The position numbers and the translations under genes are program-made. A DNA stretch of 64,000 nucleotides from Heliopora coerulea (Eukaryota > Cnidaria > Anthozoa > Scleralcyonacea > Helioporidae). The notes under the pieces were generated by a model. That model made no database searches. It was given only the letters and a program-made list of their open reading frames with translations, and was not told the DNA's origin. Position 1 is the stretch's first letter; each line of letters begins with the position of its first letter. The DNA is taken from positions 984,001-1,048,000 of the forward strand of contig JASJOG010000060.1 of assembly GCA_030142905.1 (NCBI GenBank), read 5' to 3'. Below, piece by piece: positions 21,149 to 63,978 of the stretch.

Positions 21149-22455
21149 ATGATTATTTGTAGAACTGCTGGAACAGGTAAGACATACCTAATCAATGTCC
21201 TAAAACAGGTTATAGGAGAGAAGTCCATAGTTACAGCAACTACTGGGATAGCTGCATTTAACATCCATGGGCAAACATTTCATTCTGCTACCCAACTTCC
21301 AATTTGTGAGATCAAAGAACTTCAGGGTGAGTCATTACAGTGTCTACAGTTGAAACTTGAAGGTAAGGAATATCTTATTGATGAAATGTCTATGATTGGC
21401 CACAAAATGCTGTCATGGTTAGACAACAGATTATGTGCAGGGACTGTATTTCAAGATACACCATTTGGAGGCATGTCAATTATTCTTTTGGGAGACTTTG
21501 GACAGTTGCCTCCAGTGCGTGATCGACCATTGTATGTTAGTGGGAGTGGGTCTATTGTTAGTGATCATGGCCACAGTTTATATTCTTTGTTTGATACTCT
21601 TGTTATCCTAGATGAGGTTATGAGGCAGGCTGGGGATGATCCTGATGCATTATCATTCAGAGTTTGTTGATGAGGATGAGAGATGGGAGAGTGACAGAAC
21701 AAGATTGGTATCTTCTCCTTCAACATTCACCTACCAATGTTAATATGGTTGAGTTTGCTGACGCCATTCGATTGTTCTATGACAAGAAAAGTGTAGCTGA
21801 TTATAATTATGAGAAGTTAAGAGCAAATGGACAACCAGTAGCAAAAATTCAGGCAAGACATTCTGGTCATGGAGCATCAGCAGCAACATCAGATGAAGCT
21901 GGAGGGTTAGAGCCTGTCCTGTTCTTGTCTAAGAAAGCAGATGTAATGCTAACAAGTAATCTCTGGGCTGAAGCTGGCCTTTGTAATGGCTCATTTGGAA
22001 TGGTAGAAGAATTTTGGTTTTCTGAAAATATTGGACGACCAAATTTACCTATTGCTGTGTTGGTTCATTTCCCTTGTTATACTGGTCCTGGTTTTTGTCA
22101 CAATTGTGAGAAGTGTCTGCCCATTCCCCCAAAGGTATTTGATTGGATGGCTGACAGTAAGTATATGACTAGACAGCAGATTCCATTGAGATTGAGGTAT
22201 GCAATGACAATTCATAAATCACAGGGGCAATCACTAAAAAAAGTTGTTGTGGACCTGGGAAAAGGAGAGAAAGTTGCTGGCTGTACATTTGTGGCCACTT
22301 CAAGGGTAAGGTCAATTGATGAAATGGTTTTTGAACCAATGACATTTGATCAACTAAAAGCAATTGGCAGAAACAGAAATATGATAAAGAGACTTGAAGA
22401 AGAACAGAGCTTAGAATCACTGGCAAAATTGACAAAGCAAAGATATAGTCAGTAG
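21149..22455 (+). pseudogene. Helentron Pif1-type SF1 helicase
   Basis: The helicase that unwinds DNA during rolling-circle transposition. Motif I reads RTAGTGKTY, with Arg in place of the first Gly of the Walker A loop. Motif Ia is TATTGIAA, motif II LIDEMSMI, motif III LLGDFGQLPPV (21480-21530). After a stop at 21668 the frame resumes with VMLTSNLWAEAGLCNGS, AMTIHKSQGQSLKKVVVDLG and FVATSRVRS, the C-terminal motifs. It ends at 22455. Only the stop and the Arg substitution are obvious lesions. Confidence 0.85.
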
Positions 22456-22569: not shown

Positions 22570-23076
22570 GTCTGTTACTGGGCACATTGAACTTTATGGT
22601 AGTATGTGCTTTCGAGGTAGACAATGTAAAATATCCTCTGGTTCTCCTAGATTTGCTCTATTTGCAGGAGACAAGCTGAGGGATGTCTGTTACTGGGCAC
22701 ATGACTATTCTTAATAGGCATGTTAATTATGTAACTGCCAAAATCTACAATCATAAATTGAAGCTTAGAAAAAGTTTAAAAGTTTATTAAATCCAGGTAA
22801 ATTTTGTAGAATAAAGTAAAAATCTATGATTGCAATTGCATCACAAATATGAATTTTAAAGACAATGACAATAGTACTTTGATTTTCATACACATGCCTA
22901 TGAATAAATCATGTGGTTTCGAGGGAGACTGTGTTTAAAAATGTTTGTTACTGAGCACATATTTATGTGCTTTCGAGAGAGACATTTGTTTTCATTAATT
23001 GCTAGTGATTATTTAGCAGTTAAAGAAGTGAAGGTCTGTTACTGGGCACAATGTTCAGTTGTGCTTTCGAGGTTAA
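22570..23076 (+). repeat. Array of hairpin units with conserved flanks
   Basis: A unit of the form GTCTGTTACTGGGCACA-(loop)-TGTGCTTTCGAGGTAGAC recurs at 22570-22622, 22945-22983 and 23034-23076, with split halves at 22685 and 22891-22929. In each unit the central GCACA and TGTGC pair into a stem (ACATG/CATGT in the split unit) while loop length and sequence vary from 4 to 16 nt. It lies just 3' of the helicase and is probably a Helentron 3' feature or a structured RNA. Confidence 0.7.
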
Positions 23077-24898: not shown

Positions 24899-27801
24899 AT
24901 GAATGGGCAAAGAATAATCTTTTCCGGGTTCAACTTAATTTTTCAACATTTAATATTACGTTTTCTCTCTGTTTTGATCACCGTTTATATTGGTTACCAT
25001 GGCAATTTTTACCTCTCAAAATATGAATTTTGGCGCGAATTTTGCGAAGGCCGTAAACTCCAAGAGGACGAAGACTCTGTAAGTTATCACTTCTTCCTTT
25101 ATATATAATTTAGTGAAATATTTCCATGTTCTTTTACGTGAATTTTGTTTTATACATTCCAAGGAAGATTTCACACTGTAGCATGCTTAACTTTGTAATT
25201 TAATATTGTCGTTTATGCTTCTTTCTTTATCTCACCTGCGTTTAGCGATCTCATTCATTGGCTTTGAATTTCTTACTTTAATTCTTTGTAACGTTCTCTC
25301 CTAGCTTTAAACTGCAACTGAAGTTCTCGACTACTCACATGACGTTGACTTTAAAGTAATTTATTATTCTTAATCTCCCTGCATAAGCAATGACCAATGC
25401 TGGTGACTAACTATATTTTGTATAGAATTAAAATGCTTAAAGTTTGTGAAAGGTGCATACTTATAATGTCCTTTTTGCAAAGTACTTAGTTAACATTGTT
25501 ATCGTGATCTAAATCCAACAGTGAAATAAATTGATAACCTGTTTTCTTAGGGGAACAATATGTGTGAAAAAACATCAATAATACTTCTATTCTTATATTT
25601 GTTTTCTTTCAGCATTTTAAGCACCAATATGGAGGTATTGTATCAGAGGAAAACTTAAACGCTAATTCACTTCAAGTTTCATTCATTTAGAAATGAAAAA
25701 AAAAACATAAATAATTAAAACTGCACCATTTACTCGTATGCACGATGTCAAAGTTAGAGTTTGTCAAAGTAAACACAAATTTTATTAACTAATATTAGCA
25801 GACTCTGACCTCCAACAAGAATAAAACAAACTCTTGGTAGCATCATTCCTCAAATCAAATAGGCATCAAATAGGCTAGAAGGAAAATGAGTTTGAACCTA
25901 TGTTGAATTTTAAAAGAGGACATACCATTTGGATGGAAAAAGTCATCTGACCTTTACTGTTTAACTTGTCCAGTTGTTGTAATACATAGCTGTACAATGT
26001 CTGTATGCAGGAAAAGTTAAGTCTATCGACAACAATTAATTGTTGGTGTCTTAATATCTTTTCAGAATGATGAACAATATATTGAAGAAAGTAAGGTTTT
26101 TAGAAATCTTTCATTTAAAACTGACAATTTTTCTTTTTGACATTAGTGATATGATTACTGCTGTCGACAATGACCAAATGAGCATCAAAAGCTGTACACA
26201 CCAGTATCTTTTTGCACTCAGTCCAATTATTATAATAAATAACTGATACAAAATGAACCTTTTTCTTTTTGCAGATGCTAGTCAAGCTCATTCAGGTGAG
26301 ACAGGTGACAATTACGATAAACATAACGAAAACTTGTATTAAATAAATTAATATTGTCTACTTTCCTTCTTGTGTTTCTTTCCTTAAAGATGCAAGCTAT
26401 GACAGTGATGGTAAGTGGACATACTTTTCTCACAAAAACATTAGGTTAAGATAACTAACAGAGTTTGTAATTTCTAGTTTGTTTACATTTCTTGTTAATT
26501 AAATTGAAACTGCATATTTAAAAGATCTGCTTTTCCACCTTTGTTTCTTTTCTTAAAGATGCAAGCAATGAAAACCATGGTTAGTGTGCTGTATATAACA
26601 ATACTTTTTTGCACTAGTCCAATTATTATAATAAATAACTGATACAAAATAAACTTTTCTTCTTCCAGATGATAGTCAAGCTCATTCAGGTGAGACAAGT
26701 GACAATTATGATAAAAATAATGAAATCTTGTAGTATATAAATTAATATGGTCTGCTTTCCTTCTTGCATTCTTTTTTCATTAAAGATCCAAGCTATGAAA
26801 GTGATGGTAAGTGGTCATAATTTTCTAAGTAAACATTTGGTTCAAATAAATAATAGAAGTTGTCATTTCTAATTTGATTACATTTCTTATTAATTGAATT
26901 GAAACTTCTGTGTATATTCAAAACATCTGCTTTTCCAACTTTATTTTTTTCTTTTCTAAAAGATGCAAGAATTTACAACCATGGTAAGTTGTGCTTGATT
27001 TGTATCAGTATAGCAGAATGTGATTAATATGGTTATGATAACTTCACAATTAACCTGGTTAATTGTGAAGTTATCATATATATTAATACAATCTGCTAGC
27101 GTGTCTTACTGCTACTTCTTTTCTTTATGTTGCAGGTGATAACAACCGTGGTAAGGTCCAAAACATTAGGTTACCACTAATAAAGGAGTTCCTAATCTTT
27201 ATTTAGATTACATTTTGCCTTAATTAAAGTTAGAAATAGCACCACATATAAGTAACATTTGTTTTTTTCCTTTTCTTTCTTAAAGACGCCAGATACAACA
27301 ATGATGGTATGTACTGGTAGTGCTTTTCACTAACAATTCTATTGGTTAAAACTAAAAAAGGGTATTGCTAAGCTCTTATTTATATGTATTTTGCCCTATT
27401 TAACTGTTAATAACTACATTCCTTTATTTCTTTATTAAAATACAGATGGTGGACACCATGGTAAGTTGTGTAAATTTTGCATTAGGTACATTTAATTTTA
27501 CAGAATTTATATAATATTTATTATAAGTATCACTAAGATTGATTTTTTATGTTTGTTTTATTTCATAAATATTCAGGAGAACAATTTCATGGTAAGTTAA
27601 GTGTTGTTGTTAAATACTTTATGTTATTCATTACAATATATTCATTTTCCCATTCTCTAATTTGTTTACATTTCATGTTATAGATCACTATGTGAGAGGT
27701 GATATTACAAAACCTTTTTGATATTTTATAATTACAAGAACATTATATGAATGACGATAATTCTCTTCTTTCTAGTGAGACTGCCACGGAGGCAGCAATG
27801 A
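24899..27801 (+). CDS. Micro-exon gene with membrane-anchor first exon
   Basis: Predicted spliced host gene. Exon 1 (24899-25078, 60 codons, then GTAAGT) begins MNGQRIIFSG and has a hydrophobic segment LIFQHLILRFLSVLITVYI, a signal anchor, then an acidic end. Alternative second exons are 25613-25634 (22 nt, phase 0 to 1) and 26067-26091 (25 nt, same phases). Then come eleven symmetric phase 1-1 micro-exons: 26275-26295, 26390-26410, 26559-26579, 26669-26689, 26786-26806, 26963-26983, 27136-27150, 27286-27306, 27446-27460, 27577-27591 and 27684-27698, seven of 21 nt and four of 15 nt, each with AG before and GT after. A final exon starts at 27776 and stops at 27801 (VRLPRRQQ). Each encodes a 5- or 7-residue peptide usually starting with Asp: DASQAHS, DASYDSD, DASNENH, DDSQAHS, DPSYESD, DARIYNH, GDNNR and so on. 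All join without a stop. The design resembles schistosome micro-exon genes, but no homology is claimed. Splicing is predicted by eye. Confidence 0.75.
26213..26995 (+). repeat. Tandem duplication of a three-micro-exon block
   Basis: 26213-26600 and 26605-26995 are copies of one segment of about 395 bp, each with three micro-exons (exon spacing 394, 396 and 404 bp between copies). Intron sequence is conserved too, e.g. CCAATTATTATAATAAATAA occurs upstream of both first exons. This shows how the array expanded. Confidence 0.85.
27036..27081. repeat. Perfect inverted repeat in an intron
   Basis: ATGATAACTTCACAATTAAC, three loop bases, then its exact reverse complement. A hairpin of about 21 bp. 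The core GATAACTTCACAATTAACC also occurs at 29604-29622 inside the polymerase gene, suggesting a small mobile foldback unit. Confidence 0.8.
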
Positions 27802-28099
27802 AGATGTAAGTTAAATTGAGCAAAGTGTGTAAATAATGTTGAGTAGCTTACAAAGCTTATCATTCATAGGGTGTTCATAAATCAACAGGAGACATAATAA
27901 TATATTTAGTTTTTACAACAGTTACAAATATGATTTCTGCATGAAATTTATTTGCACATTATCATAATATATTATAATGTTCAGCTTAAACAAAAATACA
28001 ACAAAGTAAAATGTTTAATAATACCAATAACACAATTGTTATAATCTACTCTGTCTATGATTAAATCACATCCTGATTGGGTGAGCATTGATTCGTTTC

Positions 28100-28530
28100 T
28101 TTTGTTGTTCTTTTTTATAGTTATACAAAGATGCTAAAGATGTGGCCATGGTGGCCACATTGCAAAATATTGCCAACTGAGAATTTTTTATTTTAAAGTC
28201 AAAAAACAAATTATAAATGGAAAAATAATATATTTGGTAAAGAAACCCACATATCTAATTTCATAAAGATAAAATGTTCATGACATTGTTACCAAAGTGT
28301 TTCTGCTTCCATGGATTTTTCAGAAGAGGGCATCTGAATTCAACCTTTAAAACTACTCAAGGTTCATTAAATTACATGAAGGTTTTTCTAAAGTGAGTCT
28401 ACTTTAATTTACAGGAATCAACTGTTGGAGGTGTGGCCAGATGGGCCACACTGCACGCAACTCCCACCGAGGGGGTGGTAGTGGCAGAAGCTGGGGTCCC
28501 CAAAGGAATGGAGGGGGCCCCTAATACATT
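28100..28530 (+). pseudogene. Two zinc-knuckle exons
   Basis: Two CCHC-type blocks follow acceptor-like sites. The first (about 28127-28180) reads a stop, then RCGHGGHIAKYC. The second (acceptor TTTACAG before 28415) reads NCWRCGQMGHTARNS, then a Gly/Arg-rich tail and stop at 28523. Zinc knuckles bind single-stranded nucleic acid. The first has a stop in the Cys-x-x-Cys, the second has Ser in place of the last Cys. They may be the 3' exons of the micro-exon gene, an alternative 3' end, or an unrelated remnant of a retroelement gag. Confidence 0.4.
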
Positions 28531-28576: not shown

Positions 28577-28985
28577 TACAATGTTTGTTATTTTATGTTG
28601 TTTTAGTTATATATTACGTTAGAGGGCTGGAATGAAGATAGGCGGTTAACCAGAAAGATGATTAAGAGTTTTTTTACTCAAACATTTTGTTATATAACAC
28701 TTTGTAGGTGTACTTTTGGAAGTTCTCAAACTGTTTTACAATTCCTTGTCTTGATACTGAATATCAAAAATGCGGCAGATACTAAAAAATGTTAAACCAT
28801 ACCTGTCAACTGTTTCCGAAAACTTTTGAAAACTTCATTCCAGCCCAACAGTTTTGATTCTTATTTTTCAATAAAACTTCTTATTTGGTTTAACAGTCTA
28901 TATTTATTGAGTTATTTTTGAAAGTGCCATCGAACTTAATCAAAGCGAATAATTTCACATACTAGGAGCTTTTCCTTGTCTCTTA
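28577..28985. other. Intergenic, no gene seen
   Basis: AT-rich, without coding signal. A possible polyadenylation signal AATAAA lies at 28870. Confidence 0.4.
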
Positions 28986-29329: not shown

Positions 29330-30287
29330 ACCAATCTATAACAGCATTGGCTAGTTCACTGTTTAAGATTCAAAATGATTATCTTCCAGACTCTTCATAC
29401 AGTTCTAGAGTATTGGAAATATTAGACAAATTTGAACCGAGAGCTTTATATTTTTGTGATGCCAATTACTTTGACAAAGATGAAGATGACAAGCTGTATA
29501 AGCATTTCGATATTTGTAAGAGTTATTTACAAATATTGATTAAAAATGAACAACCTATACCAATATATTCTATTTCAGAATCATCCTCAGGGTATTATGA
29601 AACGATAACTTCACAATTAACCGTGAAGTACTATATATACCAATATATAGTATCAATAATATTCGCAATCTAGAAAAAACAGGAGAATTCTACATAGATG
29701 AGGTAATTTTGGAGAAATACAATTGTGGTCGTACAACAGAAGCCAGTTTTTATTCTTCAAATTTAGTGAAATATTTGGTTCAAGTGTTAAAAATGGACAG
29801 ATCAAATATAAAATACAAGATTACTACCAATAAAGCATTAAAACTGGATACATTCAAAACTTTCATAGAATATATATTTTATAATTTTGAAGAAAAACAA
29901 CCTGAACTGTTAGCAAGCTGTTTTATGGGACATTTAGGAACTAAATATAATAAAACTAACAATGGTTTTACCTCCCAAGACTGAGACAACTATAATTTAT
30001 TATGGATAACTATAATGATTTATATTTGATTAAGGAACAAAAAAATTGATAGATTGTTTTACGAAAAATGTAGTGTTAATAAATTTGTTGTTTCCAAAGC
30101 AATCTTATTCCTCTAAATCTAATAGAAACATGTTATGGACCGGAAAGTTGTCTTATCAGTTAACACTGATGGCATATTTATTCAAAATGCAACAAGAAGG
30201 ATGTTAAATTTAGTATCAAACAAATAGGAAAAGTAATAAAATATTTCGAGAAAGATTTTTGAGATAACATCGAGAAGGTTATATATA
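29330..30287 (+). pseudogene. Family B DNA polymerase, part 1 of split gene
   Basis: N-terminal-to-middle part of a family B DNA polymerase unlike the Polinton one at 3-7 kb. 29347-29570 reads YSSRVLEILDKFEPRALYFC, then FDICKSYLQILIKNEQPIPIY, where Asp and Tyr fit polymerase motif A. A small insertion near 29570-29655 flanked by ACCAATATAT breaks the frame. 29709-29984 then reads EKYNCGRTTEASFYS, KITTNKALKLDTF and LLASCFMGHLGTKYNKTNNG, the latter in motif B position. Near 30150 VNTDGIFIQ resembles motif C. The frame continues to the Tigger insertion at 30288 in the middle of KVIYT. It is interrupted by stops and two insertions. Confidence 0.65.
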
Positions 30288-30879: not shown

Positions 30880-32523
30880 ATGGCATCTCCTGCTGGACCC
30901 TCTACCAAGAAACAAAGGAAGGCTATTGATATCGAAACCAAGATGAAAATAATTAAGGATTATGAAGACTGTAAGAAAGTTCAAGCGAAAAGGTTTGGTG
31001 CATGAGATGGAAAAATTGCTGTCCATATGGTTTGATGACCAAATCATGAAATGAATGCCAATGAGCCTTTCCTTAATTCAAAGTAAGGTGCTTAGCCTCT
31101 TCAACACCTTAAGACATGTGAGGGTCCGAAATGTACCAAAACGTTTTCGGCAAACCATGGTTGGTTTCAGCAATTTTGCCATAGGTTTAATCTACATAAT
31201 CGTGGTGTTTATGGTGAGGCAGCAGAATGATTCATTGACCATTTGGATAAGATTATTGAGGAAGGAGGCTATCTACCGGAACAAATATTTAACGTCAACA
31301 ACACTGGCCTCTTGGAAAAAAATGCCAGAAAGGACATACCTTCACAAAGAGGCTACAAGTATGCCTGCTTTCAAGGCCTTTAAGGATCGCATCACATTGC
31401 TGTTAGGCGGAAATGTTGCAGGGCATAAGTTAAAACCATTCTTCATTTATCGCTCCGAAAACCCTTGTACTTTAAAGTATGTTAATAAAAATACTTTACC
31501 AGTCTATTATCAGGCTAATAATAAAGTATGGATGACTTGCACTTTGTTTGACGACTGGTTTATCAACTGCTTCATACCTGCAGTCAGGCAATATTGCCTT
31601 GAAAAGGGCATTCCCTTCAAGATAATGCTTCTCCTAGATAATGGCCCAGGTCACCCCCAGCATCTTGATGATCTACACCCCAATGTAAAAGTTGTGTATC
31701 ACCCTAAAAACACAACTTCTATCCTTCAGCCAATGGACCAGGGGGCCATACCTACTTTTAAGGTGCATTATTTGCGCACTACTTTTGCAAAGGCAGTAGC
31801 AGCAATGGAGGACGGCAAAACAACTCTTTGTGAATTTTGGAAGGAATACAATATTTTACATTGTATCAAGAATATTGAAACAGCCTGTCATGAAGTGACA
31901 GAGAAGTGCATGCAAGGCATATGGAAAAAAAATGCCAAAAAATTTGTGAACACTTTTGAAGGATTTAACAAAGATCATTCCAAAGTGACAAATAAGAAAA
32001 TAGTTGATCTTGTGTGAGTGTTGAATTTAGAAATGGAAGCGAATGATGTGCAAGAATTAGTGGAATTTGTTGAAGGGGAGTTAACGAACGAAGATTTACT
32101 TGAGTTAGAGCAGCAACAACACCCAGAAGAGGATGAAGAACAAAAGAAATTCACAGTCAAGGGCTTAGGGGATGTATTCTCAAAAATAAATGAGGTGATG
32201 CTTGAACTAGAGGCCATGGACCCCAATGTTGAACGCTTAACAAAAGTTGAACGGCACATCAATGAAGGACTAAGATGTTATCATGAAATTTATGAGGAGA
32301 AAAAGAAACAAACAAAGAAAAATTGATACTGGGATTTCTAAGAAAAACTCCAACACCGACTCCCACTGAGACTACATCTACAGCTAGTACCCTTTCTCCG
32401 GCAACCTCTCCCTCACCCGGGCCCTCTGCTATACACAAGTCTTTCGATGACAACCCTGATGATCCTCGAACTCTTTTTGACTCTGGCCCAGAAGATGAAA
32501 TATTTGAAGGATTTCAAGAGTAA
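30880..32523 (+). pseudogene. Tigger transposase
   Basis: DDE-superfamily pogo/Tigger transposase. The N-terminal DNA-binding part is readable near 30880-31000 (SPAGPSTKKQRKAIDIETKM), then KLLSIWFDDQI and SLIQSKVLSLFNTL. The core frame 31300-32017 has RTYLHKEATSMPAFKAFKDR, MLLLDNGPGHP (second catalytic Asp) and ILQPMDQGAI (third Asp). The first catalytic Asp region reads FNVNNTGL, with Asn in its place. The acidic tail (32018-32523) ends in a Pro/Thr/Ser-rich stretch after a frameshift. Stops and frameshifts in the N-terminal third make it inactive. Related to the TIGD1-type proteins of animals. Confidence 0.85.
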
Positions 32524-35375: not shown

Positions 35376-36121
35376 ATGAGTCAGATCAAAGTTAAAAATT
35401 TTGTTTATAAAGTTCACCCTGTTTATAATATGTACGCTGCATCAAAAGATGGCAAGATTATCCATATAGTAAAAAAGAATCCAATGGATGGTAATCTATC
35501 TAATACCAGTTATGGGATGATAATGGTAAGAAAAAGGGGTGGTTCTAAATATAAAGGATATTATGCACACAGGTTACAATGATATGATAACAGACAAAGT
35601 TATTGACCATATTAGTGACAATAAAAAAGATAACCGTCTGTCTAATCTCAAACTAATTACAACACAGGAAAATAATAAGAAATCAGAAAAAAATCGTGAT
35701 TACACATTTGTCCAGAATAATCATAAAAATAGAAAATATGTTAGAACAATTAATCTTAACACTACTCAGTTTTTATACTTTAACAGTTTATATAGTGTAA
35801 AACAACATTTACGCATTAATTTTGGTATGGTTAAAATGATATGTCGAGGCTTGAATAGTTGTAAATCAACATATTCAAAAAACTATAATAAATACACCTT
35901 TCCATATATTACAGAACAACAATTGCCAAAAGATTATAAATCTGACAATAAACGTCCAAGAAAGATTAGTGAAGAAGAAAAAAATAAAAATAGAATAGAA
36001 TCAATTAAAAAATGGAAAAAAACAAAGAACAGATATGTCCAAAATGTGATAAGAAAATGAAGAACCATTATAGAAGTCTTCATAATAAAAAATATTGTAT
36101 TGGAAATCATAAGAGTGATTG
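35376..36121 (+). pseudogene. HNH homing-type endonuclease
   Basis: Starts MSQIKVKNFVYKVHPVYNMY, with an N-terminal NUMOD4-like region. After a frameshift near 35575 it reads VIDHISDNKKDNRLSNLKL, the HNH core, with His-Ile-Asn-type spacing and an Asn-rich helix as in bacteriophage and organellar HNH enzymes. KSEKNRDYTF and a DNA-contact region follow, and a C-terminal zinc finger (ICPKCDKKMKNHYRSLHNKKYC spans about 22 residues; key Cys-x-x-Cys and His-x-Cys pairs). HNH enzymes cut DNA. The single frameshift is the main lesion. Confidence 0.7.
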
Positions 36122-37376: not shown

Positions 37377-37478
37377 CTGATACTCACAATACTGTTTGAT
37401 GTTTAGGAAACATGAGAGCTTGGATATATTGAAGTAGATGAACGATCTTCACGCTCGATACTCAGAAAATGATATCTG

Positions 37479-37551
37479 AGCCCCAGACGGGGATCGAACC
37501 CGCAACCTTCTGATGACCGGTTAGACGCTCTAACCATTCAGCTACCGAGAC
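37479..37551 (-). tRNA. tRNA-like copy 1
   Basis: 73 nt; folds into a cloverleaf with acceptor GTCTCGG/CTGGGGC, T arm GCGGG-TTCGATC-CCCGT and B box GGTTCGATCC. The anticodon loop CCGGTCA would give GGT (Thr) but has C at position 33 where U is invariant, and the stem has an A-C mismatch. Possibly a pseudo-tRNA or SINE head. Confidence 0.5.
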
Positions 37552-37720
37552 TCAGATGGCGAGCTAAGTTGCAAATTCGATATATATATGTGCGACCTAA
37601 GCGGAAGCCACTATATATTGATAATGATTGAAGCAGTTTGATGTTTAGGAAACATGAGAGCTTGGATATATTGAAGTAGATGAACGATCTTCAAGCTCGA
37701 TACTCAGAAAATGATATCTG

Positions 37721-37793
37721 AGCATCAGACGGGGATCGAACCCGCAACCTTCTGATGACCGGTTAGACGCTCTAACCATTCAGCTACCGAGAC
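37721..37793 (-). tRNA. tRNA-like copy 2
   Basis: As copy 1, except that the 3' acceptor strand reads CTGATGC, adding one acceptor mismatch. Confidence 0.45.
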
Positions 37794-37962
37794 TCAGATG
37801 GCAAGCTAAGTTGCAAATTCGATATATATATGTGCGACCTAAGCGGAAGCCACTATATATTGATAATGATTGAAGCAGTTTGATGTTTAGGAAACATGAG
37901 AGCTTGGATATATTGAAGTAGATGAACGATCTTCAAGCTCGATACTCAGAAAATGATATCTG

Positions 37963-38035
37963 AGCATCAGACGGGGATCGAACCCGCAACCTGATGATGA
38001 CCGGTTAGACGCTCTAACCATTCAGCTACCGAGAC
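37963..38035 (-). tRNA. tRNA-like copy 3
   Basis: As copy 2, with a further change in the anticodon stem (TCATCAGG in place of TCAGAAGG), so the stem no longer pairs. Confidence 0.4.
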
Positions 38036-38204
38036 TCAGATGGCAAGCTAAGTTGCAAATTCGATATATATATGTGCGACCTAAGCGGAAGCCACTATAT
38101 ATTGATAATGATTGAAGCAGTTTGATGTTTAGGAAACATGAGAGCTTGGATATATTGAAGTAGATGAACGATCTTCAAGCTCGATACTCAGAAAATGATA
38201 TCTG

Positions 38205-38277
38205 AGCCCCAGACGGGGATCGAACCCACAACCTTCTGATGACCGGTTAGACGCTCTAACCATTCAGCTACCGAGAC
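38205..38277 (-). tRNA. tRNA-like copy 4
   Basis: Acceptor as in copy 1; one change in the T-arm side (GTGGG for GCGGG). Last minus-strand unit before the head-to-head junction. Confidence 0.45.
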
Positions 38278-38342
38278 TCAGATGGCGAGCTAAGTTGCAA
38301 ATTCGATATATATATGTGCGACCTAAGCATATTGCCATCTGA

Positions 38343-38415
38343 GTCTCGGTAGCTGAATGGTTAGAGCGTCTAACCGGTCATCAGAAGGTTGCGGGTTCGA
38401 TCCCCGTCTGGGGCT
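38343..38415 (+). tRNA. tRNA-like copy 5
   Basis: First plus-strand unit; sequence equals copy 1. Confidence 0.5.
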
Positions 38416-38584
38416 CAGATATCATTTTCTGAGTATCGAGCTTGAAGATCGTTCATCTACTTCAATATATCCAAGCTCTCATGTTTCCTAAACATCAAAC
38501 TGCTTCAATCATTATCAATATATAGTGGCTTCCGCTTAGGTCGCACATATATATATCGAATTTGCAACTTAGCTCGCCATCTGA

Positions 38585-38657
38585 GTCTCGGTAGCTGAAT
38601 GGTTAGAGCGTCTAACCGGTCATCAGAAGGTTGCGGGTTCGATCCCCGTCTGGGGCT
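38585..38657 (+). tRNA. tRNA-like copy 6
   Basis: Sequence equals copy 5; spacing 242 bp. Confidence 0.5.
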
Positions 38658-38826
38658 CAGATATCATTTTCTGAGTATCGAGCTTGGAGATTGTTCATCT
38701 ACTTCAATATATCCAAGCTCTCATGTTTCCTAAACATCAAACTGCTTCAATCATTATCAATATATAGTGGCTTCCGCTTAGGTCGCACATATATATATCG
38801 AATTTGCAACTTAGCTCGCCATCTGA

Positions 38827-38899
38827 GTCTCGGTAGCTGAATGGTTAGAGCGTCTAACCGGTCATCAGAAGGTTGCGGGTTCGATCCCCGTCTGGGGCT
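38827..38899 (+). tRNA. tRNA-like copy 7
   Basis: Sequence equals copy 5; the unit is cut 43 bp after the tRNA at the 16-bp direct repeat. Confidence 0.5.
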
Positions 38900-39059
38900 C
38901 AGATATCATTTTCTGAGTATCGAGCTTGAAGATCGTTCATCTACTCACAATACTGTTGCAGATCTCAAGCGGCAAGAGGTCTGGATACCACACTTAATAA
39001 AATGAACTGCGCATGTCCTATATATCCTATTTTCTCTTGTGGCATTGTTTTCGGACCAC

Positions 39060-62805: not shown

Positions 62806-63978
62806 CAGTCAACTCTTGCCTTGCGGACACCCCGCTATTACGGACACCCTATAATTCCGGACAGATGGTAAATCCCCGGCCGAAACTACTATGAAATGTA
62901 TTGAAATAACTCTCACTATTATGGAATTGCGGACACTTCATGCGGTCCCAAACTAACATTTGTATTGTTTTACAACGGACACCTGTTTGTCAGCTGAAGT
63001 ACTTTGAATATTCTGTTCGTCATTACTTCTGTCGACAAAAATGACAGACAAAATATTAACGTGTCTTTTAATACGACCAAGGTTTATCTTCCGATCTTCA
63101 AAGTTCTTCCACTCTGTTTACATTACTTTCGAGGCTTTTCAGTTTGTTTTGCCGTTTCAATGCTCGTGACAGACTTGCGCTTTTGTGTAGACTGTGCAGT
63201 GGCTATTCCTTCTTGTTTGTCTCGCAAGGACTGCCTGGCTATATCACTGTCAGTAATGAGTTTTTCAAGTCTTGTCAAATATTTATGTTCACCATGAAAC
63301 TTGTAAAGAACAGGAATCTCTAAACCCAGGCCAGCTCCTCTGTTTACACTCTTTCCACAAATGACAGCTTCTCCTCTGTGACGTACTCTTTTCAAAAATG
63401 AAGAAACAATTTTGGACAGTCCTAAAGGAATATGCCCCACAACTCGTCCGTTATTTTCTGTTATGGCCACAGCATGTGGATCTTTGGCATTTTCCGGTTC
63501 ACATTGAAGCACAAGAGTCATGTCAATTTCAGGCTGAAATTCGTCTTTGTAAACATGGTGGCCTCTCAACCAAGAATAATAAGACTTGTGTTCTTCACAC
63601 TTTTCTTGACTTGCCATCAATTTGTCAGCATTTGTCTGAAACATGATTACTAACTTGGCATAAGACGACTGAGTTTTGTTACGTTATTGTAGCTTTACAG
63701 TGAAGGAAAAGGCAATTGACACTGATTCATGTTACAGTTTGATTTTTGGTTTGGGTATATAAAATTTTTGATTTGTATTTTAATTTGTATTGTGTATTTA
63801 TATATCACAGTAAATATTAACTAGATATTGAAAGAAACTGGACATTTTAAAATAAAAAAGCAGTAATACATAGTAAAAGACATTTTACAACCTGACTTTG
63901 GGTCATTTTTCTCGCACCTCACTATTACGGACACCAAATAACAGTCCCCAGGGTGTCCGCAATAAGGAGAGTTGACTG
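62806..63978. mobile_element. TIR element carrying a HIRAN ORF
   Basis: 1,173 bp with ends CAGTCAACTCTTGCCTTGCG and, reversed, CAGTCAACTCTCCTTATTGC, flanked by TA (62804-62805, 63979-63980). GCGGACACC-type motifs repeat near both ends. The TSD and end sequence fit Tigger/pogo-type elements. It has no transposase but holds one intact ORF. Confidence 0.9.
63123..63644 (-). CDS. HIRAN-domain protein inside the TIR element
   Basis: Uninterrupted 173-codon frame. Residues about 24-85 form a HIRAN domain: RGHHVYKDEFQPEIDMTL, then CEPENAKDPHAVAI, then GRVVGHIPLGLSKIVSSFL. HIRAN domains, known from HLTF-type helicases, bind the 3' end of single-stranded DNA. The C-terminal part is charged (LRDKQEGIATAQSTQKRKSV). 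The start could be the first Met or the Met ten residues later (MASQEKCEE). Its intactness within an element and beside broken genes suggests recent movement or selection. No transposase neighbour. Confidence 0.8.
   Translation of the reverse strand: MFQTNADKLMASQEKCEEHKSYYSWLRGHHVYKDEFQPEIDMTLVLQCEPENAKDPHAVAITENNGRVVGHIPLGLSKIVSSFLKRVRHRGEAVICGKSVNRGAGLGLEIPVLYKFHGEHKYLTRLEKLITDSDIARQSLRDKQEGIATAQSTQKRKSVTSIETAKQTEKPRK

Follow-up and report, generated by a model that had tools for sequence, protein, structure and literature searches.

A candidate micro-exon gene with eleven frame-neutral 15- and 21-nt units in genomic DNA of Heliopora coerulea

We have analysed a stretch of 64,000 nucleotides from Heliopora coerulea, hereafter the window, in which eleven consecutive units (seven of 21 nt and four of 15 nt) with acceptor-like and donor-like borders lie at positions 26275-27698 of the forward strand. 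All eleven are in phase 1-1 and can be joined without a stop codon, as the original prediction of AG-(15 or 21 nt)-GT units had it; that observation is right and is not a matter of chance. What is established is how the locus is built, that its frame is open, how it was duplicated, and that each unit has splice signals. The best explanation, to which we assign a probability of about one half from the DNA sequence, is a protein-coding gene of the micro-exon-gene (MEG) type, in which splicing would tune a disordered acidic segment. The units and their predicted peptides are as follows.

26275-26295, forward strand: micro-exon 1, 21 nt, DASQAHS
26390-26410, forward strand: micro-exon 2, 21 nt, DASYDSD
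26559-26579, forward strand: micro-exon 3, 21 nt, DASNENH
26669-26689, forward strand: micro-exon 4, 21 nt, DDSQAHS, copy of micro-exon 1
26786-26806, forward strand: micro-exon 5, 21 nt, DPSYESD, copy of micro-exon 2
26963-26983, forward strand: micro-exon 6, 21 nt, DARIYNH, copy of micro-exon 3
27136-27150, forward strand: micro-exon 7, 15 nt, GDNNR
27286-27306, forward strand: micro-exon 8, 21 nt, DARYNND
27446-27460, forward strand: micro-exon 9, 15 nt, DGGHH
27577-27591, forward strand: micro-exon 10, 15 nt, GEQFH
27684-27698, forward strand: micro-exon 11, 15 nt, DHYVR

The introns of the array are 89-156 nt long. As every unit is divisible by three and in phase 1-1, the layout would allow skipping without a change of frame, in agreement with what had been proposed. 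The peptides were also said to begin mostly with Asp, and nine of them do (the other two begin with Gly). The last base of the units is G in 11/11, the first A in 9/11 and the second T in 9/11, and the Asp start is largely a consequence of the junctions of G with AT. A second donor 9 nt downstream of micro-exon 1 would give a 30-nt form, and if the donor of micro-exon 11 were unused the frame would continue as GDITKPF and then stop.

Two further observations concern the introns. Those after micro-exons 1 and 4 (26296-26342 and 26690-26733) continue in frame with an Asp/Asn-rich peptide, followed by a stop, and have a second donor-like site 9 nt downstream of the micro-exon; the readthrough may be what remains of a micro-exon since lost, or may belong to an alternative form of 30 nt. 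A palindrome is present between micro-exons 6 and 7, within their intron (27011-27098; 88% self-complementary, with perfect 22-bp arms), the RNA of a 101-nt stretch around it folding at -45.7 kcal/mol, and its 19-nt core is found again at 29604. It is possibly a small mobile element, and it might have an effect on splicing.

The array was compared with chance using splice sites scored with generic metazoan matrices. The best frame-keeping, stop-free chain in 26200-27800 comprised 11 units, against a best of 4 and a mean of 0.45 in 1000 dinucleotide shuffles of the same DNA. Away from the array, the best chain among 312 overlapping 1601-bp segments covering both strands of the 64 kb was of 5 units, at ~42.8-45.6 kb, in DNA that we take to be DIRS-like coding sequence and that has an integrase match. 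The bare AG-15/21-GT pattern occurred 20 times in 26200-27800 versus a mean of 8.4 in 200 shuffles, which is weak evidence by itself; being only about twice the expectation, it leaves the case for the array to rest on site quality and frame. When the micro-exons are joined, phase 1 contains no stops, frame 0 one and the third frame 17, and phase 1 was open in 0.6% of base-shuffled joins of all exons and in 3.6% of those of the eight exons outside the second copy of a duplicated block (see below). GT and AG are present in 11/11 units each, A at donor position +4 and G at +5 in 10/11 each, and pyrimidines make up 81% of positions -20 to -5 of the acceptors.

Upstream of the array, three predicted exons were identified:

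24899-25078, forward strand: exon 1 (coding part), 60 codons, phase 0 at the donor
25613-25634, forward strand: exon 2a, 22 nt, phase 0 to 1, HFKHQYG, acceptor 9.9 bits, donor 4.0 bits
26066-26090, forward strand: exon 2b, 25 nt, phase 0 to 1, NDEQYIEE, acceptor 6.1 bits, donor 7.5 bits

The hydrophobic character that had been ascribed to the first exon was found again: it encodes one hydrophobic segment, strongest at residues 13-31, with a hydropathy maximum of 1.95 over 19 residues. No obvious cleavage motif was seen by eye in this N-terminus. The end of a CAG acceptor-like site, read from the sequence and unscored, lies 26 nt before the ATG, and exon 1 may therefore not be the first transcribed exon. 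With either 2a or 2b alone, the array is read in phase 1, through to the 3' exons; with both joined, translation stops after 68 codons, and with neither the array falls into another, Met-rich frame, open until a stop in the last micro-exon. By frame, then, the two would be mutually exclusive, as had been suspected, and because they are unusable together, the gene would need at least some alternative splicing should both be real. The first residue of the micro-exon 1 peptide would be Asp after 2a and Asn after 2b. The acidic segment formed by exon 2b and all micro-exons would comprise 77 residues, rich in Asp, Asn, Ser and His, with a calculated charge of -16.5. Dual coding through the Met-rich frame was considered and rejected as evidence, the openness of that frame having a trivial cause: only 3 of the 69 phase-1 codons have T in the second position, and 3786 of 5000 codon shuffles likewise left the Met-rich frame open over 66 codons.

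Downstream of the array there are several candidates for the end of the gene:

27776-27805, forward strand: possible stop exon, 30 nt, phase 1, VRLPRRQQ and a stop at 27799-27801
28121-28150, forward strand: possible phase-1 exon, VIQRC and then a stop, weak donor of 4.0 bits
28415-28524, forward strand: possible terminal coding exon, phase 1, acceptor 7.7 bits, GINCWRCGQMGHTARNS...GGGP and a stop
28870-28875, forward strand: AATAAA, 346 nt past the stop of the preceding, zinc-knuckle-like exon

The gene had been thought to end at 27801. The stop is there and the sites of its exon are good (acceptor 9.2 bits, donor 7.7 bits), but other 3' exons are possible as well, and another exon in phase 1 is predicted at 28415-28524. 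The latter continues the phase of the array and reads GINCWRCGQMGHTARNSHRGGGSGRSWGPQRNGGGP to the stop, a peptide that is zinc-knuckle-like and then Gly/Arg-rich. Against the Pfam family zf-CCHC it scored 20.6 bits, just under the cut-off of 20.8. The zinc knuckle has the pattern C-x2-C-x4-H-x4-C, and the last Cys is replaced by Ser in this exon; zinc knuckles are unusual in anchored or secreted proteins. The candidate at 28121-28150 overlaps what appears to be a decayed partial copy of the zinc-knuckle-like exon (~28121-28167) with an in-frame stop; its local alignment with the 28415 exon scored 36, versus a maximum of 35 in 500 shuffles, which is only suggestive of kinship. The AATAAA at 28870 is the first after 27179, with four ATTAAA in between and eight AATAAA at 25525-27179; as this hexamer is common in such AT-rich DNA, it is weak evidence for a gene end. 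The gene may extend beyond 27801 to the zinc-knuckle-like exon, and the likelier arrangement would have 28415-28524 as a long C-terminus and 27776-27801 as an alternative short one.

The array has grown by tandem duplication, and its eleven units are therefore not independent observations:

26191-26590, forward strand: tandem block, first copy, micro-exons 1-3 with their introns
26588-26995, forward strand: tandem block, second copy, micro-exons 4-6 with their introns, 83% identical to the first

An intron piece at 27160-27228 is 74% identical to 26435-26503, an older repeat that links 27136/27286 to the block pattern. A comparison of the two blocks gives 7 differences in 63 exon positions and 36 in 257 intron positions, the latter count excluding the 20 nt before acceptors (9/58) and the 6 nt after donors (1/18), which were counted apart. 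All seven exon substitutions change amino acids, and no purifying selection was seen between the blocks, exon divergence being about the same as that of introns. Gap openings numbered none in exons and seven outside, a difference that is not significant given an estimated ~1 expected in 63 exon positions. Gapped global alignment of intron to intron was uninformative (shuffled baseline of 0.81).

The persistence of the units was also compared with simulated neutral decay. The older intron pair, the only one that could be aligned, differs by 26-30%, or ~15% per lineage, and this single pair is the sole source of the drift estimate. With the second block copy set aside, eight units are left, and the probability that every one of them remains usable was 0.008, 0.001, 3e-5 and 5e-7 at 7, 10, 15 and 20% substitutions per lineage, respectively; the simulation starts from the present sequences, and its outcome depends on the drift assumed. 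At 15% per lineage a single unit stayed usable in 29% of cases on average. Splice signals and frame are kept in all 11 units, and neutral decay is an unlikely cause of this pattern. Selection, if any, would act on splice sites and frame rather than on residues. This would be expected of a tether that is disordered or of a product that diversifies, but also of a dying gene.

The predicted gene lies between coding regions which, from their open reading frames, we take to be transposon-like. On the upstream side, pieces ending at ~22.45 kb on the same strand as the gene are presumably Helitron-like, and a PIF1-like helicase was matched by Pfam at 21149-21670; on the downstream side there is a DDE_1 transposase match (Pfam) at 31055-32017. 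Just downstream of the Helitron-like pieces, the motifs TGTTACTGGGCACA and TGTGCTTTCGAG are repeated three times each (22573-23071). Elsewhere in the window, two adjoining 242-bp tandem arrays of opposite orientation (37394-38945; 3.9 and 2.5 copies) contain six tRNA genes according to ARAGORN, which reads them as tRNA-Thr(GGT), or seven according to Rfam. An ORF with an HNH_3 endonuclease match is present at 35530-36060, with no relative confirmed in viral contigs. On the reverse strand, a HIRAN-domain ORF (63123-63683) gave 53 relatives in a database search, with identities of up to 87% in the part aligned, and an ORF at 10807-11316 matches the TNFR cysteine-rich family at 19.8 bits, below the Pfam cut-off of 29.4.

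Searches for homologues returned nothing for any part of the predicted gene. The conceptual spliced protein had no match at an E-value of 1 or better among 110 candidates in a database of predicted ORFs, which need not include spliced MEG proteins; neither exon 1 nor the micro-exon DNA patterns had a match in collections of predicted ORFs, viral contigs and prokaryote contigs. Spliced genes are scarce in the collections searched, and records of the source genome may be missing from them, so that this absence says little.

A different reading of the same locus is that of a real gene whose micro-exons are all constitutive, the array being a repeat-rich acidic linker grown by tandem exon duplication with little splicing diversity. 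Exon symmetry would be needed for such duplications to be tolerated, and tandem exon duplication, where tolerated, results in symmetric exons of one phase; moreover, nine of the 11 donors and six of the 11 acceptors score at least 7 bits. However, five of the 11 acceptors are AAG instead of CAG or TAG, AAG acceptors are usually weaker and would favour skipping, and exon definition is difficult at lengths of 15-21 nt. Furthermore, 2a and 2b are not usefully joined, which calls for some alternative splicing if both are real. We consider constitutive splicing possible, but would not expect it.

Unlikely, in our estimate, is a decayed or never-functional array, that is, a duplicated intronic or intergenic unit in which a signal resembling a micro-exon was present by chance, or what is left of a dead gene in surroundings rich in transposons. 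In principle, duplication could have multiplied one chance signal, and the similar divergence of exons and introns, the seven non-synonymous exon substitutions out of seven, the lack of homologues among predicted ORFs and viral and prokaryote contigs, the flanking transposon-like regions and the in-frame stop in one zinc-knuckle-like copy would all be in keeping with it. Against this, neutral decay would hardly have spared frame and splice signals in 11 of 11 units, and the first exon, the second and one candidate last exon share the frame. Capture of a host gene fragment by the neighbouring Helitron-like element would be in line with the same-strand coding pieces and the helicase match, but a search of 22-31.5 kb for a terminal hairpin with an exact stem of 7-11 bp and CTRRT after it gave nothing, a crude and weak test, and we regard such a capture as very improbable. 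In favour of the predicted micro-exon gene are the chain of 11 units, the open phase-1 frame, the consensus at the splice positions, the outcome of the decay simulation, the exclusion of 2a and 2b by frame, the shared phase of the 28415 exon and the agreement with a published structural rule (see below). The five AAG acceptors, the lack of homologues in the collections searched, the seven amino-acid-changing substitutions between the blocks, the N-terminus with no obvious cleavage motif and the zinc-knuckle-like end, unusual for an anchored or secreted protein, speak against it.

In the predicted micro-exon gene, the first exon would encode a hydrophobic anchor or signal, one of the two mutually exclusive short exons (2a or 2b) would set the frame, and the eleven symmetric micro-exons would encode a disordered segment rich in Asp, Asn, Ser and His, joined to one of several C-termini, either the short basic VRLPRRQQ or the zinc-knuckle-like and Gly/Arg-rich end. 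Each skipped micro-exon would take 5 or 7 residues off the acidic segment with the frame unchanged, and skipping would thereby tune the length of the segment, its charge and its number of His and Tyr residues. We infer transcription of the locus, skipping and the resulting splicing diversity, as well as the disorder of the segment, its membrane location and its tuning role. If expressed, the gene would be a compact example of micro-exon gene growth: two generations of exon duplication are readable in its introns (the 83% block and an older ~70-74% remnant), and splice sites and frame have been kept while the encoded residues drifted.

Bicycle proteins carry a paired cysteine-tyrosine motif, and this was not seen in the predicted protein. 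According to PMC9168663, aphid bicycle genes have many micro-exons of uniform phase and encode rapidly evolving proteins; these features would be shared by the gene predicted here, but the internal exons of bicycle genes are almost all in phase 2 and 11 of 11 micro-exons here are in phase 1, so that on the phase given in that source a bicycle gene is ruled out. The conceptual protein has no troponin match in Pfam. To our knowledge, troponin T has neither a membrane anchor nor a zinc knuckle. PMC2447309 describes the alternatively spliced 5' exons of TNNT3 (fast skeletal troponin T) as mostly of one phase class, and PMC4012202 a hypervariable N-terminal region of troponin T that in some birds contains sites for metal binding. 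The use of alternative exons of one phase to build a variable region would be common to TNNT3 and the predicted gene. Among the matches listed from open-licence papers, there was no comparable long micro-exon array outside flatworms, aphids and troponin T. We consider it rather unlikely that the locus is a micro-exon gene that evolved independently of those in flatworms and aphids. In such a gene, skipping of tandem-duplicated 5- and 7-residue modules would dial an acidic tether between a membrane anchor and a zinc-knuckle-like end, setting how long and how charged it is and which metal- or tyrosine-bearing sites it has, with a frame-enforced choice of the second exon. If expressed, the predicted gene would offer a test of whether a parasitic life is a requirement for genes of this kind or whether they appear wherever symmetric micro-exons undergo duplication.

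The closest parallels are the MEGs, which are reported in tapeworms as well as in schistosomes (PMC7653826). The structural rule given there demands at least 7 exons, at least half of them shorter than 70 nt and divisible by three, with a run of four (PMC7653826); the predicted model with exon 2b and the 28415 exon has 14 exons, 11 of which are shorter than 70 nt and divisible by three, and 11 micro-exons are consecutive. By these numbers the predicted model would qualify as a micro-exon gene; the rule also takes its exons from a gene annotation and asks for exon skipping, and the exons used here are predictions. The likeness to schistosome genes that had been suggested holds for structure and frame-neutral layout, but not for the short introns or the Asp/Asn/His-rich product. 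Introns of 0.1-5 kb, longest in the centre, are described as characteristic of Schistosoma MEGs (PMC10526429), whereas those of the array are 89-156 nt with none long in the centre. Schistosoma MEG proteins have an N-terminal signal peptide (PMC10526429), where we predict a hydrophobic segment at residues ~13-31. Next to the introns, the Asp/Asn/His-rich product with its candidate zinc-knuckle-like end is a further difference. What the MEGs of Schistosoma, Echinococcus and Hymenolepis have in common with the gene predicted here is a series of tiny exons, more than four of them consecutive and each divisible by three, with 15 nt a common length, skippable without a frame shift, together with a hydrophobic N-terminus, a fast-changing product and transposon-rich surroundings (PMC10526429, PMC4350168, PMC7653826).
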